From the NCBI GenBank assembly GCA_027451405.1, contig DAIDJM010000003.1:62001-126000 (forward strand): DNA of 64,000 bases. Reading direction: 5' to 3'. The notes beneath the pieces are model-generated. The model had not been told where the DNA came from, did not search any database, and saw only the letters and a program-made list of their open reading frames with translations. The position numbers and the translations under genes are program-made. Below, piece after piece: positions 10,526 through 41,987 of this stretch (the first letter of the stretch is position 1; the number at the start of each line of letters is the position of its first letter). The DNA is from Acetobacteraceae bacterium. Its GTDB lineage: Bacteria; Pseudomonadota; Alphaproteobacteria; Acetobacterales; Acetobacteraceae.

Positions 10526-11386
10526 CTAGCTCCGCAGCAATTCGTTGATCGCTGTCTTTGCCCGCGTCTGCGCGTCCACGCGCTTGACGATGACGGCGCA
10601 AGCGAGCGACGGGCCTGGCGTGCCGTCCGCGAGCGGGCGGCCGGGAAGCGTGCCGGGGACCACGACCGAGTAGGCGGGGACGCGGCCCTGGTGAGTTTCG
10701 CCGGTTTCGCGGTCGATGATTTTCGTGGATTGGCCGATGAAGACGCCCATCGAGAGCACGGCGCCGCGTTCCACGATGACGCCTTCGGCGACTTCGGAGC
10801 GGGCGCCGATGAAGACGTCGTCTTCGATGACGACCGGGCCGGCCTGCAGCGGTTCGAGCACGCCGCCGATGCCGGCGCCGCCGCTGATATGGACGTTCCG
10901 GCCGATTTGCGCGCAACTGCCGACGGTGGCCCAGGTGTCGATCATGGTTCCGCGATCGATATAGGCGCCCACGTTCACGAAGCAGGGCATCAGCACCACG
11001 TCGGGCGCGACATAGGCGGGACGGCGCACGATGGCGCCGGGGACCGCGCGGAAGCCGGCGGATTCGAAGCTGAGATTGCCCCAGCCGGCGAATTTCAGCG
11101 GGATCTTGTCGAAACAGGGGACGCCGGCGGCGCCGGGCATCACGCTGTTCGCGTTCAGCCGGAACGAGAGCAGGACGGCTTGTTTCAGCCACGCATTGAC
11201 GAGCCAGGCGCCGCCCGCGCGCTCGGCGACGCGCAGTTCGCCGCTGTCGAGCTTGCCGAGCACGGTTTCGACGATCGCGCGATCCTCGCCGCCGGTCGCG
11301 GGCGAGAGGCGGGCGCGTTCCTCCCAGAGCGCCTCGATGCGCGCGCGCAGATCGGCGTAGGGGTCGGGCTGGGGGTGTGCGCTCAT
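10526..11386 (-). CDS. dapD: 2,3,4,5-tetrahydropyridine-2,6-dicarboxylate N-succinyltransferase
   Basis: A 286-residue enzyme of the succinylase lysine/meso-diaminopimelate pathway. It transfers succinyl from succinyl-CoA to tetrahydrodipicolinate in the cytoplasm. The middle and C-terminal parts show the left-handed beta-helix hexapeptide pattern ([20 protein letters not shown], then [16 protein letters not shown]). Length fits the family's 270-290. The ATG at 11386 overlaps the stop of argB (ATGA), so the two genes are coupled. The frame is open far upstream inside argB, but the family start MSAHPQ fixes this choice. The pairing of arginine and lysine/peptidoglycan precursor genes is plausible for this bacterial group. 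Confidence 0.95.
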
Positions 11387-12264
11387 CGGTGGATCAGGGT
11401 TCCGGGGCCGGCTTCGGTGAAGAGTTCGAGCAGGACGGCGTGCGGCACGCGGCCGTCGAGGATCACGCAGCCGCGGGCCCCGAGATGCAGCGCTTCGAGG
11501 CAGTTTTCCACTTTCGGGATCATGCCGCCCGAGATGGTGCCGTCGGCGATCAGGTCGCGGGCTTGTTGCGCCGTCAGATCGGCGATGAGTTTGCCGTCGC
11601 GGTCGAGCACGCCGGGCACGTCGGTGAGCATCAGCAGGCGCGTCGCGTGCAGCGCGCCGGCGAGCGCGCCGGCGGCGTCGTCGGCGTTGATGTTGTAGGT
11701 CTGGCCTTGCTCGTCCTGGCCCACGGGGGCCACGACCGGGATCAGGCCGCTGCCTGTGAGCGCGTGGATGACGCGGACGTCGATCGCGGCCGGTTCGCCG
11801 ACGAAGCCGAGATCGAGCACGCGCTCGACGGCGCTGTCGGGGTCGATGATTGTGCGGGTGAGCTTGCGGGCGCGGATCATGCCGCCGTCGCGGCCGGAGA
11901 TGCCGACCGCTAAGGCGCCCGCGCGGTTGATGAGGTCGGTGACCTGTTTGTTGACCGTGCCGGCGAGAACCATTTCGACCACTTCGACCATGGCGGCGTC
12001 GGTGACGCGCAGGCCGTGCACCCATTCGGATTTGATGGCGAGACGTTCCAGCATGGCGCTGATCTGCGGGCCGCCGCCATGCACCACGACCGGGTTCATG
12101 CCGACCTGCTTGAGCAGCGCCACATCGCGGCCGAAAAGCTGGGCGAGTTCGGGGTCGCCCATGGCGTTGCCGCCATATTTCAGGACCACCGTGGCGCCGG
12201 CGTAGCGGCGGAGATAGGGGAGCGCCTGGGCGAGAATCTGGGCGCGCTGGAGGGCTTCGGTCAT
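11383..12264 (-). CDS. argB: Acetylglutamate kinase
   Basis: A 293-residue amino-acid kinase that phosphorylates N-acetylglutamate in the second step of arginine synthesis. Visible motifs are [11 protein letters not shown] (N-terminal ATP site Lys/Gly), [39 protein letters not shown] and [14 protein letters not shown]. Length is typical. I chose ATG 12264 (MTEAL); an alternative TTG at 12279 would add five residues encoded by the GC-rich repeat (MPAGG). With the ATG start, the repeat-derived GGAGG lies almost against the start codon, so the true initiation site deserves care. It is coupled to dapD by an ATGA overlap. Confidence 0.95.
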
Positions 12265-12265
12265 G

Positions 12266-12441
12266 CCTCCGGCGGGCAAGGGGCTCTACCCCTTGCATCC
12301 CCGCTGGGGCCGGAAGGCCCCAGACCCCTTTTTGTTAGGTTGGTGTGCGGTTTCAACGGACTCGACTCAAAACGGAAAGGGGTCTGGGGCCTTTCGGCCC
12401 CAGCGGGGTCCAGGGGCAGAGCCCCTGGCCGCCGGAGGCGC
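12266..12441. repeat. Inverted pair of GC-rich hairpin modules between divergent genes
   Basis: Two modules point away from each other: CCTCCGGCGGGCAAGGGG through GGGGCCGGAAGGCCCC to 12330, then GGGGCCTTTCGGCCCC through GGGGCAGAGCCCC to CCGCCGGAGGC at 12441. The 45 bases between them are not repeated. The pair fills the gap between the argB and ABC-exporter starts, so the promoters of both genes must lie in or next to it. Confidence 0.7.
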
Positions 12442-12505
12442 GCCGCAGCTATCAGGTAATCTCCGTAACCCGCAACGCTGGAATAACCCCCTGCCTCCCG
12501 ATTCC

Positions 12506-14263
12506 GTGACTCCCGACACCTGGCTCCAGCAGGCCAGCACGCGCAACCTGATGTGGCGGCTCTGGCGCGAGCACATCAGGCGCTACCGCGGGCAGCTCTT
12601 TCTCGTGCTGCTGACGACGGGCGCCATGGCGGCGCTGTCGGCGGCCTATCCGATCGTGATCAAGCACGCGCTCGACCTGTTCGAGGCGCGCGACGAGCGG
12701 ATTCTCTACCAGATCCCGGCGCTGGTGCTGGCGGTCACCTCGGCCAAGGGGGTGAGCCAGTATGCGCAGATCGTGCTGGTGCAGCGGCTGGTGCTGCTGG
12801 TGATCCGGGATCTGCAGAACCGGATGTTCGAGCATCTGGTGCGGGCCGATCTGGCGCGGGTGGAGCGCGAGGCGCCGGCGGGGCTGGCGGCGCGGTTCAC
12901 GACCGATGCGGCGACCATTCGCGAGGCGATGATCCGGGCGGTCAATGCGGTGGGCGACGGGGTGACCGTGGTCGGGCTCGCCGTTTCGATGGTGTTGCTC
13001 GATTGGGAGCTGTCGCTGATCGCGGCCTGTCTCTACCCGATCGCGGCGATCCCGATTCAGCGCGTGGGCAAGCGGGTGCGGCGGGCGTCGGGCGGGATGC
13101 AGGAGCGGATGGGGGCGACCGCGACGCTGCTCACCGAGAGTTTCGCGCAGGCGCGGACGGTGCGGGCCTACCGGCTCGAGAGCGCGGAGGTGAGCCGGGC
13201 GCGGCATACGTTCCAGGCGCTGTTTTTGTCGCTGAACCGGATGATCCGGAGCCGGGCGCGGATCGATCCGTTTCTCGAGGTGCTCGGCGGGGCGGCGGTG
13301 GCGGCGGTGCTCGGGTTTGCCGGATGGCGCGCGGCGCATGGCGGCAACACGCTCGGGAATTTTTCGGGGTTCGTGGCGGCGCTGCTGCTGGCATCAAGGC
13401 CGGTGCGGGCGCTCGGCGCGCTCAACGCGGCGCTGCAGGAGGGGACGGCGGGGCTCGCGCGGGTGTTCGGGGTGATCGACGAGCCGCCGGGGGTGGTGGA
13501 GCGGCCGGGGGCGGCGGCGCTGCCGGCGGGCCAGGGGCATCTCCGGTTCGAGAATGTGCGGTTCGTTTACCCGGATGGGCGCGAGGGGCTCAGGGGGTTG
13601 AGTTTCGAGGCGCGGCCTGGGCTGACGGTGGCGCTGGTGGGACCCTCGGGGGCGGGGAAATCGACGGCGCTGGCGCTGATTCCGCGGCTCTATGACGCGA
13701 CGAGCGGGGCGATCCGGCTGGACGGCGTGGATGTGCGGGACGTGACGCTGGCGAGCCTGCGGGACGCGATCGCCTATGTCGGGCAGGACACGTTGCTGTT
13801 CGATGCGAGTGTCGGGGCGAATATCCGGATGGGGCGGCCGGAGGCGGATCCTGCGGCGATCTGGGCGGCGGCCCGGGCGGCGGCGGCGGCGGATTTCATC
13901 GAGGCCTTGCCGGACGGGATGGATACGCCGGTGGGCACGAATGGCGGGCGGCTGTCGGGCGGGCAGCGGCAGCGGGTGGCGCTGGCGCGGGCTTTGTTGC
14001 GTAACCCGCGGATTTTGCTGCTCGACGAGGCGACGAGCGCGCTGGACGCGGAGAGCGAGGCGGCGGTGCAGCTGGCGCTCGCGCATCTGCGGGCGGGGCG
14101 GACGACCATCATCGTGGCGCACCGGCTCTCCACGGTGCGGGAGGCGGATCTCGTGGTGGCGATGGCGGAGGGCGAGGCGGTGGAAATGGGGACCCATGCC
14201 GCGCTGATGGCGGCGGACGGGCTTTATGCCCGGCTGGTGAAGACGCAGGCTTTCGTGGAGTGA
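12506..14263 (+). CDS. MsbA-like ABC exporter, fused membrane and ATPase domains
   Basis: A half-transporter of about 585 residues. The N-terminal 310 or so residues form six membrane helices (for example GQLFLVLLTTGAMAALSAAY), and the C-terminal 240 form an ATPase. ATPase motifs: Walker A GPSGAGKST, Q-loop YVGQDT, signature LSGGQRQRV, Walker B ILLLDEATSALD and switch His VAHRLST. Size and order match MsbA-type lipid A/lipid flippases, but drug or peptide exporters look alike. GTG at 12506 gives VTPDTWLQQ; ATG at 12551 (MWRLWR) is an alternative. It probably acts as a homodimer in the inner membrane. Confidence 0.85.
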   Translation: MTPDTWLQQASTRNLMWRLWREHIRRYRGQLFLVLLTTGAMAALSAAYPIVIKHALDLFEARDERILYQIPALVLAVTSAKGVSQYAQIVLVQRLVLLVIRDLQNRMFEHLVRADLARVEREAPAGLAARFTTDAATIREAMIRAVNAVGDGVTVVGLAVSMVLLDWELSLIAACLYPIAAIPIQRVGKRVRRASGGMQERMGATATLLTESFAQARTVRAYRLESAEVSRARHTFQALFLSLNRMIRSRARIDPFLEVLGGAAVAAVLGFAGWRAAHGGNTLGNFSGFVAALLLASRPVRALGALNAALQEGTAGLARVFGVIDEPPGVVERPGAAALPAGQGHLRFENVRFVYPDGREGLRGLSFEARPGLTVALVGPSGAGKSTALALIPRLYDATSGAIRLDGVDVRDVTLASLRDAIAYVGQDTLLFDASVGANIRMGRPEADPAAIWAAARAAAAADFIEALPDGMDTPVGTNGGRLSGGQRQRVALARALLRNPRILLLDEATSALDAESEAAVQLALAHLRAGRTTIIVAHRLSTVREADLVVAMAEGEAVEMGTHAALMAADGLYARLVKTQAFVE

Positions 14264-19737: not shown

Positions 19738-19780
19738 GATCTTCACAGCCTCGCTCGCCGCCACGCCAACCCCCGCACCA

Positions 19781-20083
19781 TCAACGGGGCGGTGCCGTGC
19801 TCCGCCCCACCACCCGCCAAACATTCAACACGCCCGCGACCGCGCCCATCAGCACGAAGACCACCAGAAAGAGGGGTTTCGTGTGCAGCCGCCGATCGAG
19901 GAACCAGCCGATCCCGAGCCCGACCATGAGTGCCGAGACCAGCTCGACACCGACGCGGAGCGCCGATCCCAGCCCCTCCGGAAGTTGCTGGCGGCGGGGC
20001 ACGTCGGGTTGCTCGAGCCCCTGCCGGGCTCGCGCTGCCTGGAGCCGCGCCTCGAAGCCATCGTCGCCGGAAGCCAATTCCAC
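19781..20083 (-). CDS. atpI: AtpI/AtpZ family ATP synthase accessory protein
   Basis: A 100-residue protein with a charged N-terminal third (RLQAARARQGLEQPDVP) and two membrane helices (GVELVSALMVGLGIGWFLD and LFLVVFVLMGAVAGVLNVW). This is the AtpI pattern, proposed to help c-ring assembly or Mg/Ca uptake. It is first in the F0 operon, so the promoter is expected in 20084-20300. Confidence 0.88.
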   Translation of the reverse strand: MELASGDDGFEARLQAARARQGLEQPDVPRRQQLPEGLGSALRVGVELVSALMVGLGIGWFLDRRLHTKPLFLVVFVLMGAVAGVLNVWRVVGRSTAPPR

Positions 20084-20300
20084 CTCCTGTTGCGCCGCAA
20101 TGACGCCGGCAGAGGCGGGCGCTTGCTAGAAGGCGGAACGCCTAGAGTCAACGGGGTTGCGGCCTGTCTCCGGCGTGTCGCGATTGCCTGCGGCGGGCAG
20201 GTGCCGCCTCCCCGCCGTAGGCTGCTCGGCACCGCGGGCCTGCCGGCCGCGCCGAACCGGCTGTCGCGGCCGGCCGGGCGATGCCCTCCCTCCCGGCGCT

Positions 20301-20747
20301 TCAGGGAGCCGGGCGGGACGGTGAAGCGAGCGGCGGCAGAGCGGGGGGCGCCTGAGAGAGTGGCATCCGCACTTCCAGCCCCGGCGCCTTGGCGGTGTTG
20401 CGGTCATCCATCGCCTGCGGGCTGGAGCCGGGCACGTAGCCGTCCCCGAACCAGGGATAGTTCAGGCTCATTAGCGCGGGGGTCACGTGGGTCGAGGGCG
20501 TTTTCGGGGCGGTGGGCGGGGTGAGATTGTCATCCGGCACCGGGGCCGGGGTGCCCGGTTCCGGTGGCCGCCTGGCGGCGGTCGCGACGGCGAACGGGTC
20601 GCGCTGCCTGCGGTGCCGGTGGTGGCGCGCCGGGCTTGGATGGGGCGGCCGCTGGGGGGTGGTTCGGGCGGTGGCCGTGCCCGCCGCGGTGGAAAGCGCC
20701 AGCAGCGCGACCAGGAGATGCCGGCCTTGAGGCGAATGGGTAAACAT
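20301..20747 (-). CDS. Secreted proline-rich hypothetical protein
   Basis: A 148-residue product with a signal-like start (MFTHSPQGRHLLVALLALST, then AAGTATA) followed by a Pro/Thr/Arg/His-rich, probably disordered chain. One more ordered patch near the middle reads PALMSLNYPWFGDGYVPGSS. No family is recognised. ATG 20747 is chosen for the signal; TTG 20759 is an alternative. The 217 bases between it and atpI show no further gene. The extreme Pro content and low complexity make a real gene likely but not certain. Confidence 0.45.
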   Translation of the reverse strand: MFTHSPQGRHLLVALLALSTAAGTATARTTPQRPPHPSPARHHRHRRQRDPFAVATAARRPPEPGTPAPVPDDNLTPPTAPKTPSTHVTPALMSLNYPWFGDGYVPGSSPQAMDDRNTAKAPGLEVRMPLSQAPPALPPLASPSRPAP

Positions 20748-20921
20748 GATGGGGACCAACGCGCGCGCCGCGCGGCTGTTTCGCTACGCGCCGTGCGGGG
20801 GCTCGTTTGGTGCCGCTTGATTGCCGGGGGCGGGGCGTTTCATTCAGAAGCGGCGGAGGGTGGGCGATGGCGGAGCGCAAATTCCCGCCTTTCTCGCCTT
20901 CGCGCCGCAGGAGGAGAGAGC

Positions 20922-21260
20922 GTGGTATACGGCTTCGATCAGTGCCGGATGTGCGGAAAGAAGATCTCGATAGACGACCATATCACGTTGCAGGATTGGG
21001 AGATGGCGCAGCGGCGCCAACTTATGCCGGAGAAGGAGTGGCGCCGCCGCGGTTTTCTCTCCGCGCCTACAAAGTGGCAACTGGACCACCCTTGGGTCGG
21101 TTGTTGTCCGGCCTGCGGCGTCAAGCAATTCAAGAAACATTGGGGGTCGAACCGGAAGGTTCTCGTGGCACTGGGCGCGATTGTCGTCTTTTCGGCCATC
21201 ACCTGGTGGGTGTTTTCCTACGCGCCTTACAACGGGATCGGGCCGGGTCACCTCGGCTGA
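20922..21260 (+). CDS. Small zinc-ribbon membrane protein, hypothetical
   Basis: About 112 residues. Two cysteine knuckles, CRMC (about residues 9-12) and CCPAC (about 65-69), could bind one zinc. A C-terminal membrane helix (VLVALGAIVVFSAITWWVF) follows, leaving a short GIGPGHLG tail. The GTG start at 20922 is preceded by a good GGAGGAGAG ribosome-binding site; longer frames upstream are G-rich noise. The function is unknown. It precedes the acyl-CoA ligase cluster by 85 bases, but operon membership is unproven. Confidence 0.65.
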   Translation: MVYGFDQCRMCGKKISIDDHITLQDWEMAQRRQLMPEKEWRRRGFLSAPTKWQLDHPWVGCCPACGVKQFKKHWGSNRKVLVALGAIVVFSAITWWVFSYAPYNGIGPGHLG

Positions 21261-21345
21261 GCGTCCGCAGTCGGGTTTGACGTTTGGGGCAAATACCCTA
21301 ACTCTGGGCACGTAACGGGGCGCCCGTCCCCGGGGGAAACGTGCG

Positions 21346-36349: not shown

Positions 36350-36400
36350 AGGTGGTGGGTGCGACAGGGATTGAACCTGTGACCCCCGCCGTGTGAAGGC
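36350..36400. repeat. attL-type duplication: 51-bp copy of the tRNA-Val 3' end
   Basis: A 51-bp direct repeat identical to 41910-41960. It matches the 3' end of tRNA-Val(CAC), from the CCA through the T arm, variable loop and into the anticodon arm, on the minus strand; the tRNA 5' half is missing here. It is the left boundary of the integrated element. Confidence 0.93.
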
Positions 36401-36514
36401 TGGTCCTGGGGCTTGCGGGTGTTTTCTGGCTTTCGCGCGGCTTTGATTTCCTCTCGTGCTGGTCGCGAGTTTCCTTGTTTCAGTGTGACCGAGCTTGTTG
36501 CGGTTTGCCCGCTT

Positions 36515-36554
36515 GTGGTAGCTATGTGGTAGCTAGACCCGAGCTAGCTACCAC
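36515..36554. promoter_or_regulatory. Tandem arm-type sites GTGGTAGCTA (left end), with inverted copy
   Basis: GTGGTAGCTA occurs twice with one T between (36515-36535), followed by an inverted copy TAGCTACCAC (36545-36554). The tandem pair recurs exactly at 41847-41867. Short repeats near both att ends, just upstream of int, are expected of integrase arm-type or excisionase binding sites; they may also overlap the int promoter. Confidence 0.7.
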
Positions 36555-36569
36555 CGGGAGGGCGCCACG

Positions 36570-37847
36570 ATGGGCGAGCGGAGCGAAATAACCATGACGG
36601 CGGTGAAGGCTCTGGGGCCGGGGCAGACTATCTGGGACGGTGCCGTGAGGGGCTTTTGTGCCCGCCGGCAGAAGAACGCTGTCACTTACGCGGTCAAATT
36701 CCGGACGCGGGACGGTCGCCAGCGGTGGGCGACGATTGGCACGCACGGTTCGCCTTGGACCCCCGACACGGCGCGGAAAGAGGCGAGGCGGCTGCTCGGG
36801 GAAGTGGTGACCGGGGCCGATCCGGTGGCGGAGAAAAAAGAGGCAAGGAAGGCTCCGACCGTGGCGGAGCTTTGCCGCGATTATCTCGACGATGCCGAGG
36901 CCGGGCGGCTTCTGGTGCGCGGCGGCAAGCCGAAAAAGCCGCTGACGCTCGCGAGCGATCGGGGCCGGATCGAGGGGCATATTATCCCGCTGCTCGGCAC
37001 GATGAAGGTTCGGGCTGTCACGCGGAAAGATGTGGATGCCTTCATGCACAAGGTCGCCGAAGGCGCGAGCGTTAAGCCGGCGGCGAAAACCAAGCCGCGC
37101 GGCGTCTCGAAATTACGTGGCGGGCGAGGGGTGGCGACCCGCACCGTTGGGCTCCTGGGCGCAATCTTCTCTTATGCCGTGGAGAAGGGGATGCGCGCTG
37201 ACAATCCGGCCCACCGCGTGCGCAAATTCGCTGAGAACCGGCGAGAACGCCGGCTGAGCGACGACGAATATGCGTTGCTTGCAACGGCGACCAACGCGGC
37301 CGAGGCGGCGAAGGTTTGGGCGCCATCGGTGGCGTGCCTTAGGTTCCTGACCTTGACCGGCTGGCGCTCCGGCGAGGCGCTGGCGCTGCGCTGGTCCGAT
37401 ATCGACACGGTGCGCCGGGTGGCGATCCTCGCGGACACGAAATCCGGGCGCTCTGTCCGGCCGCTGAGCCACGCCGCGCTCGACGTGCTGCGGACTGCGC
37501 CACGCATCGGCAAGAGCGAGCTGGTCTTTCCGGCGAGCAAGGGCGAAGGAGCCATGTCGGGCTTCAAGAAGTTTGTCCGGCGAATCGTGGCGCTTGGCGG
37601 CTTGCCACTGGACGTGACTCCACACGTGTTGCGGCACTCGTTCGTGAGCCTTGGCGCCGACCTGGGGCTTTCCGAGCCGACGATTGCCGCGCTGGTCGGA
37701 CACCGGGGGCAGTCTATCACGTCGCGATACACGCATTTTGCGGATGCCCCGTTGCTTGCGGCTGCCGATGCGGTGGCGAACGAGACGCTGCGCCGCATGG
37801 GCGAGGCTCGCAGCGCGGAGGTGGTGCAGTTGCGGGAAGCGATCTGA
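36570..37847 (+). CDS. int: Tyrosine-recombinase integrase
   Basis: A 425-residue phage-type integrase. The N-terminal DUF4102-like arm-binding domain (WDGAVRGFCARRQKNAVTYA, then GDGR-like QRWATIG) is followed by a core-binding domain and the catalytic domain with R266 (TGWRSGEA), K291 (ADTKSGR), H352 and R355 (HVLRHSF), H378 (GHRG) and nucleophile Y387 (SRYTH). All catalytic residues are present, so it should be active. It starts at 36570, 170 bases from the left att, downstream of the arm-type sites. P4-like integrases of this kind use tRNA 3' ends as attB, as here. Confidence 0.95.
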   Translation: MGERSEITMTAVKALGPGQTIWDGAVRGFCARRQKNAVTYAVKFRTRDGRQRWATIGTHGSPWTPDTARKEARRLLGEVVTGADPVAEKKEARKAPTVAELCRDYLDDAEAGRLLVRGGKPKKPLTLASDRGRIEGHIIPLLGTMKVRAVTRKDVDAFMHKVAEGASVKPAAKTKPRGVSKLRGGRGVATRTVGLLGAIFSYAVEKGMRADNPAHRVRKFAENRRERRLSDDEYALLATATNAAEAAKVWAPSVACLRFLTLTGWRSGEALALRWSDIDTVRRVAILADTKSGRSVRPLSHAALDVLRTAPRIGKSELVFPASKGEGAMSGFKKFVRRIVALGGLPLDVTPHVLRHSFVSLGADLGLSEPTIAALVGHRGQSITSRYTHFADAPLLAAADAVANETLRRMGEARSAEVVQLREAI

Positions 37848-37950
37848 GACGAACCCAGCCACCGACAATCGGGCTCAGATTTAATTTGTGCCGAGGGTTT
37901 TTGTTCGACCAATAGGGGGCCGCGCAATGTTCTGAATTGGAGAACACACG

Positions 37951-38229
37951 TTGGCACCCGAAAAAAAACACCGCAGCGGTTACGCGGAAGCCACGCTGCC
38001 GGTGACACTCACCGACGACACGCGACTTCGCCGCCGCGCTCTGGCTGAAGCCCTTACAGCCGCCGGCTTTCCCATTAGCGACGCCACTCTCGCGACGAAG
38101 GCGACTCGCGGCGGCGGCCCACCGTTTCAAAGTTTCGGCCGAATCCCGCTCTATAAGTGGGGTGACGCTCTCGCCTGGGCCGAAGGGCGCCTTTCCGCGC
38201 TGCGCCGCTCAACATCCGAAGCCGCATAA
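37951..38229 (+). CDS. AlpA/excisionase-like DNA-binding protein
   Basis: A 92-residue protein with a TTG start and a GGAG ribosome site (leader ATTGGAGAAC). The central part (LAEALTAAGFPISDATLATK, then GGGPPFQSFGRIPLYKWGDA) fits the AlpA/MerR-like winged-helix pattern, with the GxGPxFxxxGR..Y..DxxxW signature of excisionases and directionality factors. It lies behind int, as in P4-like elements, where such proteins activate int or excision. The assignment rests on motif shape only. Confidence 0.7.
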   Translation: MAPEKKHRSGYAEATLPVTLTDDTRLRRRALAEALTAAGFPISDATLATKATRGGGPPFQSFGRIPLYKWGDALAWAEGRLSALRRSTSEAA

Positions 38230-38364
38230 AGAAACGCCGGCCCTGACGCGCAGGAGCCGGCGGCGTGTTGCTGAAATCGCTTGAGTTGGCGGCGGTCAGG
38301 TAGCACGCGCGGCAGCGAGTTTCCAGCGGTTTGGGGCCGGGCTTCTCGATTTGGAGAACCTGCC

Positions 38365-39249
38365 TTGTCATACCCCTTTAGACCACATGCGGCAGAACTC
38401 GCCGCGCGCCTGAGCTTGCATCGAGCCGGGCGTTCCTGGCGCGGCGATTGCCCAATCTGCGGCTACGCTGGCGCTTTCGTGCTGGACCAACGTGACGGTC
38501 GCACCCTTGCGTGGTGCGCGTCGTGTCAGGACCGCGCCGGGATCGCGGCGATTATCCGTGGCACTCGCCCGATTTCCGGCCCACCAGCGGGCGAATTGGT
38601 TCCGGCTGCCGTGTCTGAAACTGCGCGGCAAAAACAAGCCCAGGAGCACGCCTTGGCGCTTTGGCGCGGGGCTGAGTCGGTGATCCGCACGCCGGCGCAA
38701 CTCTATCTGCGCGCTCGAAACATTGGGCACATCGCGCAGTCGGCGGCGTTGCGGTTTCGGGGCGATTGTTCGCACCCGGCCGACAGAGCGCGCCGGCCTG
38801 CCATGATCGCATTGGTGCTGGGTCCGCACGGGGAGCCGTTGGGCGTTCATCGCACCTATCTCGACAATAACGGCCGAAAGGCTGCGATCGAGCCCCAGAA
38901 GGCGAGCGTCGGGCCCGTGTGGGGCGGAGCCATCCGGCTCGATCCAGAGGCGGCCGAGCTTGTGATCGGCGAAGGAATCGAAACGTCCGCCAGCGCGGGG
39001 CTGCTGCTGAACCTACCGGCCTGGGCCGCAATATCGGCCGGCAATCTGGCGCGCGGCCTGGTGCTGCCGCCTGACGTGCGGGCCGTAGTGATTGCGGCGG
39101 ACAATGACGCTCCGGGAATTGCCGCAGCGGAACAAGCGGCAGAACGCTGGAAGGCCGAAGGCCGGCGCGTGCGGATTGTCAAACCTGACCGGCCCGGCGC
39201 CGATTTCGCGGACCTGCTCGCCGAGCGCGGAGGGCGGACCGATGCCTGA
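38365..39249 (+). CDS. Zinc-finger/Toprim protein (primase-type)
   Basis: A 294-residue protein. Residues 26-54 contain CPIC and CASC pairs (C29, C32, C51, C54), a CHC2-like zinc finger of primases. Residues 198-275 carry a Toprim core: VIGEGIETSASAG (E203) and VIAADNDAPG (D246, D248), the metal-binding acidic residues. This layout matches Toprim-containing replication proteins of phages and satellites. The start is TTG 38365 with a GGAG site (leader ATTTGGAGAAC), chosen because the zinc finger follows at once. It overlaps the DUF3631 gene by 8 bases. It probably primes element DNA synthesis. Confidence 0.82.
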   Translation: MSYPFRPHAAELAARLSLHRAGRSWRGDCPICGYAGAFVLDQRDGRTLAWCASCQDRAGIAAIIRGTRPISGPPAGELVPAAVSETARQKQAQEHALALWRGAESVIRTPAQLYLRARNIGHIAQSAALRFRGDCSHPADRARRPAMIALVLGPHGEPLGVHRTYLDNNGRKAAIEPQKASVGPVWGGAIRLDPEAAELVIGEGIETSASAGLLLNLPAWAAISAGNLARGLVLPPDVRAVVIAADNDAPGIAAAEQAAERWKAEGRRVRIVKPDRPGADFADLLAERGGRTDA

Positions 39250-40762
39250 CGCCAGCGGCTTTTCCGACCACGCCCCACCGCCAGAGAGCGACGAAGCGGC
39301 GATTGCGCGCCTCGCCGCCTTGGCTCCCCTCGAATACGACCGGGTGCGCGAAACCCAAGCCGAGCGCATGGGCGTTCGGGTGGCGACGCTGGACAAGCAA
39401 GTTAGCGCCGCACGCCACGAGGCGGCTGGCGAGACGACCCTGCAAGGCCGCGCCTTAAAGATCGAGCCCCCCGAGCCCTGGCCGGAGCCCGTTGACGGGG
39501 TGAAACTGCTGGATGCGCTCGCCGCGTTCTACGGGCGGCACGCGAGCTTGCCCGCCCATGGTGCGACGATTCTCACGCTCTGGTCGGCGCACACATTCTG
39601 CTTTGAGGCTGCCCGCCATACGCCGCGCCTGGCGATCACGAGCGCGGAAAAGGGGAGCGGCAAAACGACCATTTTAGATCTTGTGGCGATGACATGCTGC
39701 AAACCGCTCTCCGCGAGTAGCCTGACCTCTGCTGCCATGTTTCGCAGCGTGGAAATCGCCAAGCCAACGCTTCTAATCGACGAAGCCGACCTTTTTCTGA
39801 ACGAAGCCCAGGACGTGCGCGCGATACTCAACGCGGGCAACAAGCACGGTGGGCAGGTTATCCGCTGCGTTGGGGACGATTCTGAACCGCGCGCCTTCTC
39901 GGTTCATGCGCCCGCTGCAGTGGCGGCAATCGGGCGGCTCCCGGACACGCTCACGGATCGTTCCGTCCGGCTGGTTATGCAGCGTGCCACCGCCGTCGAG
40001 CGGCCCGCACGGATCACCGTCGAGACCGAGAGGGCCGGAGCAATGCTGGCCCGAAAGGCCGCACGCTGGGCCGCCGATCACGCGGACCTGAATCAAGACC
40101 CGGCGATGCCGGCGGCGCTCGCGAACCGGCAGGCGGATAATTGGCGCATCCTTTTCGCGATTGCCCAGCGGGCCGGTGGTGACTGGCCGGCGCGAGTTGA
40201 AGCCGCCGCGCTGGCGGAAACGGGTGGCGACGCGGCAGAGAGTTTGGGCGTGGCGCTGCTTCGGGACTTGCGCGCGATTTACCAACAGGCCGCGCGGGAT
40301 CGTCTCACCACGGCCGAAATCGTCCGCGAGCTTGTCGGGATGGAAGATCGGCCCTGGCCCGAGATGCCGGGAACCGGGAAGGCGATCACGGCCGCTTGGT
40401 TCACGCGGCGGGTAAAACAATACGGCGCCGATCGGACGCAATGGAGTGAGGGAGGGGGCCGGGTTTGGGGCTTCAAACTGGCCAGTTTCGGGGACGCTTT
40501 CGCCCGATACCTGCCCGACTCGCCAGAACCCCCGCCGCAAACTGGTGAACTGGTGAAATCGCAGCGCGGGACTACAAACTTTCCAAAACCCGAACTGGTG
40601 AGCCCTCCCCCCTTCACCACTTCCAAACTGGTGAAGCCTGAGCCCTTCACCACTTTGGAATCGCAAAAAAGCCAGGTTTCTCTAGGCGAACACCACTTCA
40701 CCAGTTTTTCCGGGGGGTCGGGGGTTAGCGATAGGTCGGGACCATGGCGGGGTGAAGTTTGA
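39242..40762 (+). CDS. DUF3631-domain ATPase/helicase-like replication protein
   Basis: A 506-residue protein. A P-loop lies at residues 134-142 (SAEKGSGKT) and Walker B at 177-183 (LLIDEAD). Then come RLPDTLTDRSVRLVMQRA and the DUF3631 region (ALANRQADNWRILFAIAQRA, then FGDAFARYLPD). DUF3631 proteins are often annotated as phage helicase or replication factors and commonly follow Toprim genes. The C-terminal 70 residues (after about residue 433) are low-complexity (ELVK, ELVS, PFTT, HHFT units) because the DNA there contains iteron-like repeats. It overlaps the upstream Toprim gene by 8 bases, suggesting coupling. Function beyond ATP binding is inference. Confidence 0.85.
   Translation: MPDASGFSDHAPPPESDEAAIARLAALAPLEYDRVRETQAERMGVRVATLDKQVSAARHEAAGETTLQGRALKIEPPEPWPEPVDGVKLLDALAAFYGRHASLPAHGATILTLWSAHTFCFEAARHTPRLAITSAEKGSGKTTILDLVAMTCCKPLSASSLTSAAMFRSVEIAKPTLLIDEADLFLNEAQDVRAILNAGNKHGGQVIRCVGDDSEPRAFSVHAPAAVAAIGRLPDTLTDRSVRLVMQRATAVERPARITVETERAGAMLARKAARWAADHADLNQDPAMPAALANRQADNWRILFAIAQRAGGDWPARVEAAALAETGGDAAESLGVALLRDLRAIYQQAARDRLTTAEIVRELVGMEDRPWPEMPGTGKAITAAWFTRRVKQYGADRTQWSEGGGRVWGFKLASFGDAFARYLPDSPEPPPQTGELVKSQRGTTNFPKPELVSPPPFTTSKLVKPEPFTTLESQKSQVSLGEHHFTSFSGGSGVSDRSGPWRGEV
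40539..40707. repeat. Iteron-like array, consensus AAACTGGTGAA, seven copies
   Basis: Direct copies start at 40539, 40548, 40593 and 40625; inverted copies (TTCACCACTTT/TTCACCAGTTT type) lie at 40613, 40645 and 40697. The cores ACTGGTGA and TCACCAGT or TCACCACT are nearly constant. They are inside the 3' end of the DUF3631 gene. Repeats of this size, in both orientations next to a primase/helicase cluster, resemble replication-origin iterons of P4-type satellites. Function not shown. Confidence 0.8.
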
Positions 40763-41226
40763 GCCGCTCCGCTGCTGCCATCCTGGCGCGGGCCGAAGCC
40801 GCCGGGGTGACCGTGCAAGCCGCTGGGGATCGGCTGCGCCTCACTGCCCCGGCGCGGCCGTCTCTGGCGCTGCTGCACGAGATTGCCGGCGTAAAAGCGG
40901 AACTGCTCGCGCTGCTCGCCGACCGCGAAGCCGAGTGCGCGGAGCGGGCGGCAATCGCGGCCGAGCCCCGGCTACCCCCGGCCGGGAGCCCGGAAAGGGC
41001 GGAAGCCGACGCGCGGCAGGCGAAAACGGTGGCGGGGCTGCTGCGGGCTGCCCGCAGGCTGCCGCCGACATGGCGAGCCGCTGAGAAATCCCGTCCGCCG
41101 CCGGGGGCTGAGTGCGCCGCGTGCGGTGGTGGCGCCTGGTGGTCGGCGGCGGGCTGGGTTTGGCGGTGCCGGCGCTGCCATGAGCCTCCTGCCGGGGAGC
41201 CGGCCCTAACCGCGCCGAAAGGCTGA
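40759..41226 (+). CDS. TubC-docking-like and zinc-ribbon protein
   Basis: A 155-residue product starting at TTG 40759, overlapping the DUF3631 stop (TTGA). Residues 1-55 (ILARAEAAGVTVQAAGDRLR, then LHEIAGVKAELLALLADRE) look like the TubC N-terminal docking domain, known from modular synthases and also seen in small mobile-element proteins. A Glu/Ala-rich middle follows, then a C-terminal zinc ribbon (CAACGGGAWW, then WRCRRC). Its partner is unknown. Translational coupling to the ATPase suggests a replication-related role. Confidence 0.6.
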   Translation: MSRSAAAILARAEAAGVTVQAAGDRLRLTAPARPSLALLHEIAGVKAELLALLADREAECAERAAIAAEPRLPPAGSPERAEADARQAKTVAGLLRAARRLPPTWRAAEKSRPPPGAECAACGGGAWWSAAGWVWRCRRCHEPPAGEPALTAPKG

Positions 41227-41265
41227 GCGCCACCGTATGACCGTCAACCGGTTGGACCGGCGCTG

Positions 41266-41710
41266 GCGCGCGAGAGGCAGGTTTCGGAGAGGTATCGCGC
41301 GCCCGCGCGCGAGGGGCGGCTGAAAACAATCAATCCGAGCGGTGAGCAAGACTAACCTCGCGCAAGCGCCCGCGAGGGGCCGCTGCGACAGATACGCGCG
41401 CGCGAGAGCCGTCCGGATGGTCCTGATGCGTTGGTCCCTCAAGGTCGCTGTTCTCAGGGAAATCACGGAAACCGGAGCGGGGCGGCGCCCTGACGCTCGG
41501 ATCACTGAAAAGGTGCTGCGCGATACGCGCGCACGCGCGCGCGTGAGGCGTTCGGATCGTTCGGATCGCCTTGGTGCTGGCCCTGGTGCTGGCCCCGTCG
41601 CGCCGGTCCCTCAGCGCGCCTGCCAGCAGGGAAAGCGTAAGAGCCCGCCCAGGGCGCTCTCGCGCTCGGAAGCCGCCAGCTACGCGCGCACGCGCGGGAG
41701 AGGCGGCTTG
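41266..41710. repeat. CG-rich repeat array in the element's right end
   Basis: Runs of alternating CG recur at 41266-41274, 41305-41313, 41391-41406, 41522-41546 and 41691-41712. Shared context is GATACGCGCG before and GCGCGCGAG or GCGAGAGG after. The surrounding 41227-41846 shows no recognisable gene on either strand. It could be a control or origin region of the element; copy number and spacing are judged by eye. Confidence 0.55.
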
Positions 41711-41846
41711 GGCGACGCTGCTAACACCGGGAGACCAGAGAGCCTCTGGCCCGCTCCGGGGCGGCTCGACCCCGTTCATAGCAACGGGGCTGAACGGGCC
41801 CAACCGCACCCGCTGCCGCCACTGTCCGGGGGCTTTCGGGCGGCTC

Positions 41847-41867
41847 GTGGTAGCTATGTGGTAGCTA
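41847..41867. promoter_or_regulatory. Tandem arm-type sites GTGGTAGCTA (right end)
   Basis: An exact repeat of the left pair: GTGGTAGCTA, one T, GTGGTAGCTA, 43 bases before the right att copy. The same order at both ends (direct, not inverted) fits paired arm sites flanking the core of an integrase-type att system. Confidence 0.75.
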
Positions 41868-41909
41868 CGACTTCCGGCCCTTGGTGGCTTGGCCCGTAAC
41901 CCATTGAAA

Positions 41910-41960
41910 AGGTGGTGGGTGCGACAGGGATTGAACCTGTGACCCCCGCCGTGTGAAGGC
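41910..41960. repeat. attR-type duplication within the intact tRNA-Val
   Basis: The right copy of the 51-bp direct repeat. It is continuous with the intact tRNA-Val(CAC) on the minus strand, so integration restores the tRNA 3' end. Divergence from the left copy begins exactly after GTGTGAAGGC. Confidence 0.93.
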
Positions 41961-41987
41961 GATGCTCTACCGCTGAGCTACGCACCC
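41913..41987 (-). tRNA. tRNA-Val(CAC)
   Basis: On the minus strand the 5' GGGTGCG pairs with CGCACCC, followed by A and an encoded CCA (41913-41915). The anticodon arm is CGCC/GGCG around loop TTCACAC, with anticodon CAC. The T arm contains GGTTCAATCCC. 75 bases including CCA. Its 3' part is the attachment site of the integrative element. Confidence 0.95.

Follow-up and report, generated by a model that had tools for sequence, protein, structure and literature searches.

The 64-kb stretch of DNA analysed here (64,000 nucleotides, hereafter the window) belongs to a draft genome of an Acetobacteraceae bacterium (3.37 Mb, 67 contigs) and carries, at positions 36350-41960, a 5,560-bp element that is well supported as an island and most likely mobile. 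We consider it quite probable that this element is a minimal integrative replicon on the plan of Gram-negative phage-inducible chromosomal islands (PICIs) and phage-inducible chromosomal minimalist islands (PICMIs), integrating at a tRNA-Val gene, copied by a primase and a DUF3631 protein from iterons in the tail of the latter's own gene, and carried between cells by another element. The island is real and adds a new lineage to a kind already known; of greater interest is that the DUF3631 gene likely contains the origin, with a readable recognition code. The comparisons below suggest that the novelty lies less in small size than in a pattern of coding-tail iterons shared by much of the so far unexplained DUF3631 family.

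Boundaries and gene content of the element

The element is bounded by a perfect 51-bp direct repeat with a spacing of 5560, the right copy being the 3′ end of the sole tRNA-Val gene of the window. This agrees with the earlier note on this DNA, made by inspection of the sequence, which had described a tRNA-Val(CAC) duplication truncated on the left and intact on the right. In the host's own genome the full tRNA-Val has one perfect match, and the 51-nt fragment has one further perfect match, which is the left copy. The features are as follows.

36350..36400, no strand: core of the left attachment site (attL), truncated copy of the duplicated 3′ end of tRNA-Val(CAC), 51/51 identical to 41910-41960
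36515..36535, plus strand: putative left arm sites, two GTGGTAGCTA 11 bp apart (copies at 36515/36526)
36570..37847, plus strand: tyrosine integrase, 425 aa (Phage_integrase PF00589 and Arm-DNA-bind_3 PF13356 above cut-off)
37951..38229, plus strand: putative excisionase/AlpA-type regulator, 92 aa, TTG start (homologues across the host family; AF2 model)
38365..39249, plus strand: primase gene with zinc finger CPIC..CASC, DUF7146 and Toprim_3 (PF23639, PF13362; phrog_510 DNA primase, 1.5e-44)
39242..40762, plus strand: DUF3631 (RepAM-type) AAA+ protein, predicted initiator/helicase (PF12307, 102 bits against a cut-off of 24)
40537..40706, no strand: putative origin of seven iterons (four direct, three inverted) of CTTCACCA/TGGTGAAG type, inside the DUF3631 coding tail
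40759..41226, plus strand: TubC_N-like protein, 155 aa (PF18563 below cut-off, 21.2 against 26 bits), overlapping the DUF3631 stop
41227..41846, no strand: GC-rich, apparently non-coding stretch of 620 bp with palindromic CG clusters; open reading frame (ORF) inside without family match
41847..41867, plus strand: putative right arm sites, two GTGGTAGCTA 11 bp apart (copies at 41847/41858)
41910..41960, no strand: core of the right attachment site (attR), within tRNA-Val, 51/51 identical to 36350-36400
41913..41987, minus strand: tRNA-Val(CAC), restored at the right end (found by ARAGORN)

The tandem pairs that had been noticed near both ends are the only exact forward-strand copies of GTGGTAGCTA in the 64 kb. 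A similar double motif with the same 11-bp spacing, diverged in sequence, stands at the same positions in the relatives L054 (both ends) and L139 (left), and in more diverged form in L060 (right); because position is kept across diverged elements, these comparisons support reading the pairs as integrase arm sites.

Matching of the window ORFs against Pfam (at family cut-offs) and PHROGs, together with structural models, gives an element of five intact genes, all transcribed rightward in the order int-xis-pri-rep-ori: integrase, excisionase/AlpA-type gene, Toprim primase, DUF3631 AAA+ protein and a weakly matched TubC-like protein. The six catalytic residues of the integrase (R266, K291, H352, R355, H378 and Y387), on which the claim of an intact enzyme had been based, are invariant in 10 relatives. 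The excisionase-like gene has no Pfam match above cut-off and no PHROG match, and a homologue is found in 62 of 397 host-family genomes. Its AlphaFold model (predicted local distance difference test 80) has the RdfS excisionase as best match in the Protein Data Bank (PDB), with the GIsul2 and TorI excisionases among the best, at weak E-values; the earlier assignment as an AlpA/excisionase-like gene is thus upheld tentatively, via weak structural matches. The supposed CHC2-like/Toprim gene proved to have a DNA primase as its best PHROG; its ORF opens at 38281, and inspection favours a start at the TTG at 38365, which has GGAGAAC upstream. Nearly the same leader (TTGGAGAAC, then 5-6 bases, then TTG) precedes the excisionase and primase genes, at 37930-37953 and 38347-38367, and both have TTG starts. 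DUF3631 was rightly named from the letters alone, whereas the TubC-like gene is borne out only in part, by a TubC_N match under the cut-off. Its product carries a zinc-ribbon-like cysteine cluster at the C-terminus, and homologues also come after DUF3631 in L060, L057, L187 and L056.

In line with what had been proposed, no packaging or transfer gene was found: among the ORFs tested, neither Pfam nor PHROGs gave a match to packaging, capsid, relaxase or type IV secretion genes, terS included, and Pfam gave none to an FtsK/SpoIIIE-type transfer gene. PADLOC found no defence genes among the three window proteins scanned.

The integrase, primase and DUF3631 genes look constrained, since their ratios of nonsynonymous to synonymous differences (pN/pS) relative to L054 are 0.36, 0.52 and 0.58, with synonymous sites near saturation. 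This bears on whether the element might be a degenerating fragment of some larger prophage or island, no longer able to move, as could be argued from the 620 bp without recognisable genes at its right end and from its being the smallest DUF3631-bearing element with both ends found in this analysis. Against such decay stand the intactness of all five genes, the pN/pS values just given (with their near-saturated synonymous sites), the 51/51 identity of the attachment cores although the left copy is free of tRNA constraint, and the existence of a 5,442-bp sibling that lacks the DUF3631 module; we regard a remnant as very improbable.

Iterons in the coding tail of DUF3631 genes

The sequence TGGTGA occurs seven times at 40537-40706, in six cases as TGGTGAA. 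No other 7-mer is clustered so densely anywhere in the 64 kb, and AT-richer stretches (about 40569-40592 and 40653-40700; GC 0.46) alternate with the copies. As none of 200 synonymous shuffles reached this cluster, repeated amino acids do not explain it. The replication module of the earlier note is thereby sharpened to primase, DUF3631 initiator and iterons. Relatives have a different repeat in the same place and in a similar layout, for example CCGTCACA in L051, CCGCTACA in L055, CGCCACA in L060 and CGCAACA in L131.

The pattern was surveyed in 70 DUF3631 genes with a tail of at least 120 nt, taken from bacterial genomes and viral contigs, using 200 synonymous shuffles for each gene and, as controls, 140 internal segments of equal length from the same genes. 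Tail iterons exceeded all 200 shuffles in 48 genes, as against 3 of the 140 control segments, and after thinning to less than 50% identity in 21 of 30 genes against 2 of 60 controls. Some DUF3631 genes with short tails have a cluster just downstream of the gene. DUF3631 modules are also found on circular plasmids and in actinobacterial integrative elements. The circular 14-kb Streptomyces longwoodensis plasmid NZ_CP108973 (L050) encodes an integrase, a helix-turn-helix gene, DUF3631 (11347-12792) and a Prim-Pol, and has 12 CGCTAC repeats at and right after the end of the DUF3631 gene; its helix residue is N, the partner of GCT (see below). In Pseudomonas phage Phipami28 (PV029746; L049) the DUF3631 gene (19740-21290) has tail iterons of its own, of CCGCGACA type, so the device is present in phages too. 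A single-sequence search of IMG/VR with the DUF3631 protein gave no close relatives; an alignment query did find relatives.

Covariation between protein and iteron

A C-NNN-AC motif, commonly of the form CCGNNACA, is present in at least three copies in 64 genes, and its variable bases were compared with 348 protein columns. The window protein was excluded from this test because its recognition segment (DRTQWS) is atypical and its iteron, CTTCACCA, departs from the common form. The strongest of the 348 columns (z 9.6) lies two positions ahead of the usual arginine in the presumed recognition segment of the winged helix, followed in rank by two columns of the wing. When only sequences below 55% identity are retained, the same three columns lead (z 7.3, 5.3 and 5.2, followed by 3.2); a reduction to 16 sequences costs the test its power, though a wing column is still first. 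The pairings are these: N or D is paired with GCT in 16 of 19 cases, K with GGA in 3 of 4, Q with GAA, TCT or GGT, and T or S mostly with GTC, GTA or GCA. The test removes shared ancestry only in part; genes with GCT are no nearer kin than the whole set (median identity 0.39 in both).

Iterons in the coding tail, taken with this winged-helix covariation, lead us to suggest that DUF3631 defines a family of AAA+ initiators that read iterons and have their origin within the 3′ coding tail of the gene encoding them, that one recognition-helix residue and two wing residues allow the variable bases of CCGNNACA to be read, and that this device is common to phage satellites, phages, plasmids and actinobacterial integrative elements; we judge this proposal, taken by itself, to be probably correct. 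If so, a single gene moves both initiator and origin. For a domain of unknown function that occurs in phages, plasmids and islands, this would provide a function and a binding site as well as a testable recognition code, which, if true, predicts incompatibility between elements and lets origins be found by sequence alone.

A putative initiator-helicase

The DUF3631 protein has, by inspection, a Walker A motif (EKGSGKTT) and a Walker B motif (LLIDEAD), and its model places a C-terminal winged helix at about residues 357-423, followed by a disordered tail (430-506). Sequence relatives of this protein or of the primase were not found in the PDB. The structural matches of the model begin with the helicase region of NrS-1, with Staphylococcus aureus pathogenicity island (SaPI) PriRep1 and adeno-associated virus (AAV) Rep close, and include minichromosome maintenance (MCM) protein upon realignment. 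The Walker motifs, the adjoining primase, these matches and the iterons together point to a superfamily 3 (SF3)/MCM-like initiator-helicase acting at an iteron origin, a reading that draws in part on a predicted model.

RepAM, of the DUF3631 family, is responsible for the autonomous replication of pMEA300 and has been predicted to be a rolling-circle initiator from the resemblance of a nick site (PMC3218068). If this published prediction applied here, only the replication step would change, and the tail repeats would serve elsewhere, for example in repression of the operon. AAA+ Walker motifs, a Toprim primase next door and iteron clusters like those of PICI origins argue against the prediction, as do the matches to NrS-1 helicase, SaPI PriRep1, AAV Rep and MCM, although AAV Rep itself shows that a helicase match alone is compatible with nicking proteins; we think rolling-circle initiation improbable. 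On the iteron-initiator reading, the winged helix would bind the iterons in the gene's own tail, as the family-wide covariation suggests, and the protein, judging from its AAA+ motifs, would melt the AT-richer stretches between them and load as a helicase.

Relatives, siblings and mobility

Searching with the integrase retrieved three relatives on genome contigs, 67-73% identical over the matched part and all from metagenome-assembled proteobacteria; integrase identity is 66-69% for the relatives found at this tRNA in other genomes. The tRNA-Val core is 48 nt long in same-tRNA relatives, as compared with the 51-bp repeat of the window: it is kept at 48/48 in L139 and at 47/48 on both sides of L054, 11,746 bp apart, and L060 ends at tRNA-Val(CAC). 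The right core of L054 continues into 53 nt of the element's own left end and the contig stops two bases later, a right-end/core/left-end junction such as a circle or tandem would give. Apart from this junction and 25 nt in L183, the contigs of small relatives have no terminal repeats that would be a sign of circularity. L183 (G308:C388, 11,187 bp) combines an excisionase homologue with this 25-nt terminal direct repeat and may be circular, with a length of about 11.16 kb.

Further siblings were found through the excisionase gene or DUF3631, their bounds being exact repeats of a tRNA 3′ end.

L185: 5,442 bp, tRNA-Val, via the excisionase gene; without DUF3631 module
L177: 6,809 bp, tRNA-Arg CCG, via the excisionase gene
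L176: 7,663 bp, tRNA-Arg CCG, via the excisionase gene
L181: 9,057 bp, tRNA-Arg CCG, via the excisionase gene
L174: 10,528 bp, tRNA-Arg CCG, via the excisionase gene
L052: 7,642 bp, tRNA-Arg CCT, via DUF3631
L059: 7,777 bp, tRNA-Ala, via DUF3631
L132: 9,998 bp, tRNA-Lys, via DUF3631

Sibling sizes range over 5.4-11.7 kb and sites over tRNA-Val, Arg, Ala and Lys. The earlier impression of unusually small size did not hold, given L185 and the average of 6.7 kb for Vibrionaceae PICMIs (PMC10803314). An empty site is known for L185: its congeners G701 and G1140 have 176 and 29 nt between the left flank and the tRNA with its right flank, where G680 has 5.4 kb. The right flank of the tRNA-Arg sibling L177 lacks conservation, and for this reason a clean empty site was not obtained. 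The genes flanking the window element (DnaJ, CbpM, YceI and neighbours) have no match beside tRNA-Val in the 3-kb loci of relatives. It is because the same integrase lineage recurs at the same tRNA, a sibling has empty sites, a relative shows a junction of circle or tandem type and the integrase is intact that the mobile island proposed before is retained.

Integrase and excisionase are constant across relatives, and the middle part is swapped: Toprim plus DUF3631 in the window element and L054, DUF3631 without a recognised Toprim gene in L060, an AAA_25 protein in L139 and an 871-residue primase/helicase in L181. Cargo comprises an MmeI-type Type IIG restriction-modification gene and a PIN-domain gene in L054, and toxin-antitoxin-type genes in L060 (BrnT) and L139 (RelE). 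The known satellite-like islands gain a lineage that carries defence cargo and whose replication modules can be exchanged. L181 has a Terminase_2 small subunit (TerS) inside its repeats. A DUF5681 gene, which may have a packaging role, lies near the right end of both tRNA-Val elements (L060, 5678-6121; L185, 11393-11872), in the same place as TerS in L181. The window element is a stripped-down form of this lineage and shows what a minimal mobile island needs: integrase, excisionase, primase and initiator, with an origin at almost no extra space.

Comparison with known islands and mode of transfer

Gram-negative PICIs follow a rightward int-alpA-pri-rep-ori plan with iterons placed where rep ends (PMC6092414). 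The window element, likened to them (e.g., EcCICFT073), has the integrase on the left, an AlpA-type gene (as called from weak structural matches), a primase and an initiator, all rightward, a specific chromosomal site with direct repeats, and iterons with AT-richer spacers at the 3′ end of rep, known here by sequence; terS occurs in sibling L181, not in the window copy. It differs in having a DUF3631 initiator in place of the PICI pri-rep, iterons inside the ORF instead of downstream, and no recognised interference, capsid or terS gene. PICMIs are based on int, alpA and prim and lack a known gene for redirecting packaging; a virulent phage transfers them in concatemeric form, and complete ones were reported only in Vibrio (PMC10803314). 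The int-alpA-prim core, the size of about 5-7 kb and the lack of packaging or capsid-remodelling genes are common to both, whereas the window element lies at tRNA-Val and not fis, has another primase/initiator and has no gene overlapping int. We call it PICI-like, and not a PICI, because the fis site of PICMIs does not apply and dependence on a phage is deduced from the plan.

Actinobacterial elements of pMEA300 type likewise pair an integrase with a DUF3631 (RepAM) replication protein, but the window element has no FtsK/TraB-type transfer gene and a Toprim primase replaces Prim-Pol. P4-like satellites share a tyrosine integrase, an AlpA/Vis-type gene and a primase-helicase function, yet here primase and AAA+ helicase are separate genes of other families, as against the P4 alpha-type fusion, and no P4 capsid-size or head gene was matched in Pfam or PHROGs. 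Integrative and conjugative or mobilisable elements differ by the relaxase and type IV secretion genes, unmatched among the ORFs tested. The tmRNA-linked Pseudomonas islands moved by a jumbo phage (PMC12595487) resemble the element in their tyrosine integrase, direct repeats and lack of transfer genes, and in the restriction-modification cargo of L054, and differ in integration site; the window element is mostly replication module, with no recognised defence cargo.

For the element as a whole, the minimal PICI-like replicon would work as follows. The integrase would recombine the 48-51-bp core in the tRNA-Val(CAC) gene, the AlpA-type protein would direct excision and probably induction, and the excised circle would be copied by the two-gene module of Toprim primase and DUF3631 protein. 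As the element has no packaging or conjugation gene of its own, another element would be required for carriage; transfer would most likely proceed as concatemers in a helper phage, as the gene plan, the PICMI precedent and the sibling TerS suggest. The self-replicating satellite or mobile island proposed earlier therefore stands as a mobile island with a replication module, the strict sense of satellite, with a helper phage, following only from the plan and that TerS.

Alternatively, the element could be a cryptic integrative plasmid or hitchhiking island that excises, replicates at low level as a plasmid and is mobilised passively, by generalised transduction, by a gene transfer agent or by a conjugative plasmid that uses an oriT not seen here. 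The lack of terS and capsid genes, the DUF3631 modules on circular plasmids and in actinobacterial integrative elements, and the lack of a clear helper prophage in the genome would all suit such a life without phage. A sibling with a terminase small subunit, a plan like that of phage satellites and the spread of PICMIs by phage with no packaging gene (PMC10803314) speak for phage carriage instead, and we hold the plasmid-like alternative to be rather unlikely, if less so than the others weighed above.

Several points count against the PICI-like replicon and its recognition code. No helper phage was seen, and the host's draft genome has a single weak terminase match. Mobility of the window copy is read from assembled sequence, and the empty site belongs to sibling L185, with no congener of the window's host among the genomes compared. 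The L054 junction could be an error of the assembly path, its 57-nt repeat maybe being longer than the k-mer. The AAA+ core of the DUF3631 model is of low confidence, and in the window protein the key residue is Q but the arginine after it is missing, its CTTCACCA iteron deviating likewise.

The right-end stretch and use of the site by other islands

The stretch 41227-41846, which separates the last gene from the right arm sites, contains four clusters of alternating-CG palindromes (around 41295, 41394, 41525 and 41683) and could be a packaging or regulatory site. As a structured origin it was set aside, the fold z being only -1.6, and ORF 41342-41899, without Pfam or PHROG family, was judged non-coding.

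The tRNA-Val site is also used by others. Contig C7 of G009, another genome of the host family, has tRNA-Val at 2698-2772 and a perfect 53-nt copy of its 3′ end at 41412-41464; the same core thus bounds an island of undefined kind of about 38.7 kb, to be set beside the PICI criterion of an attachment site never used by temperate prophages.

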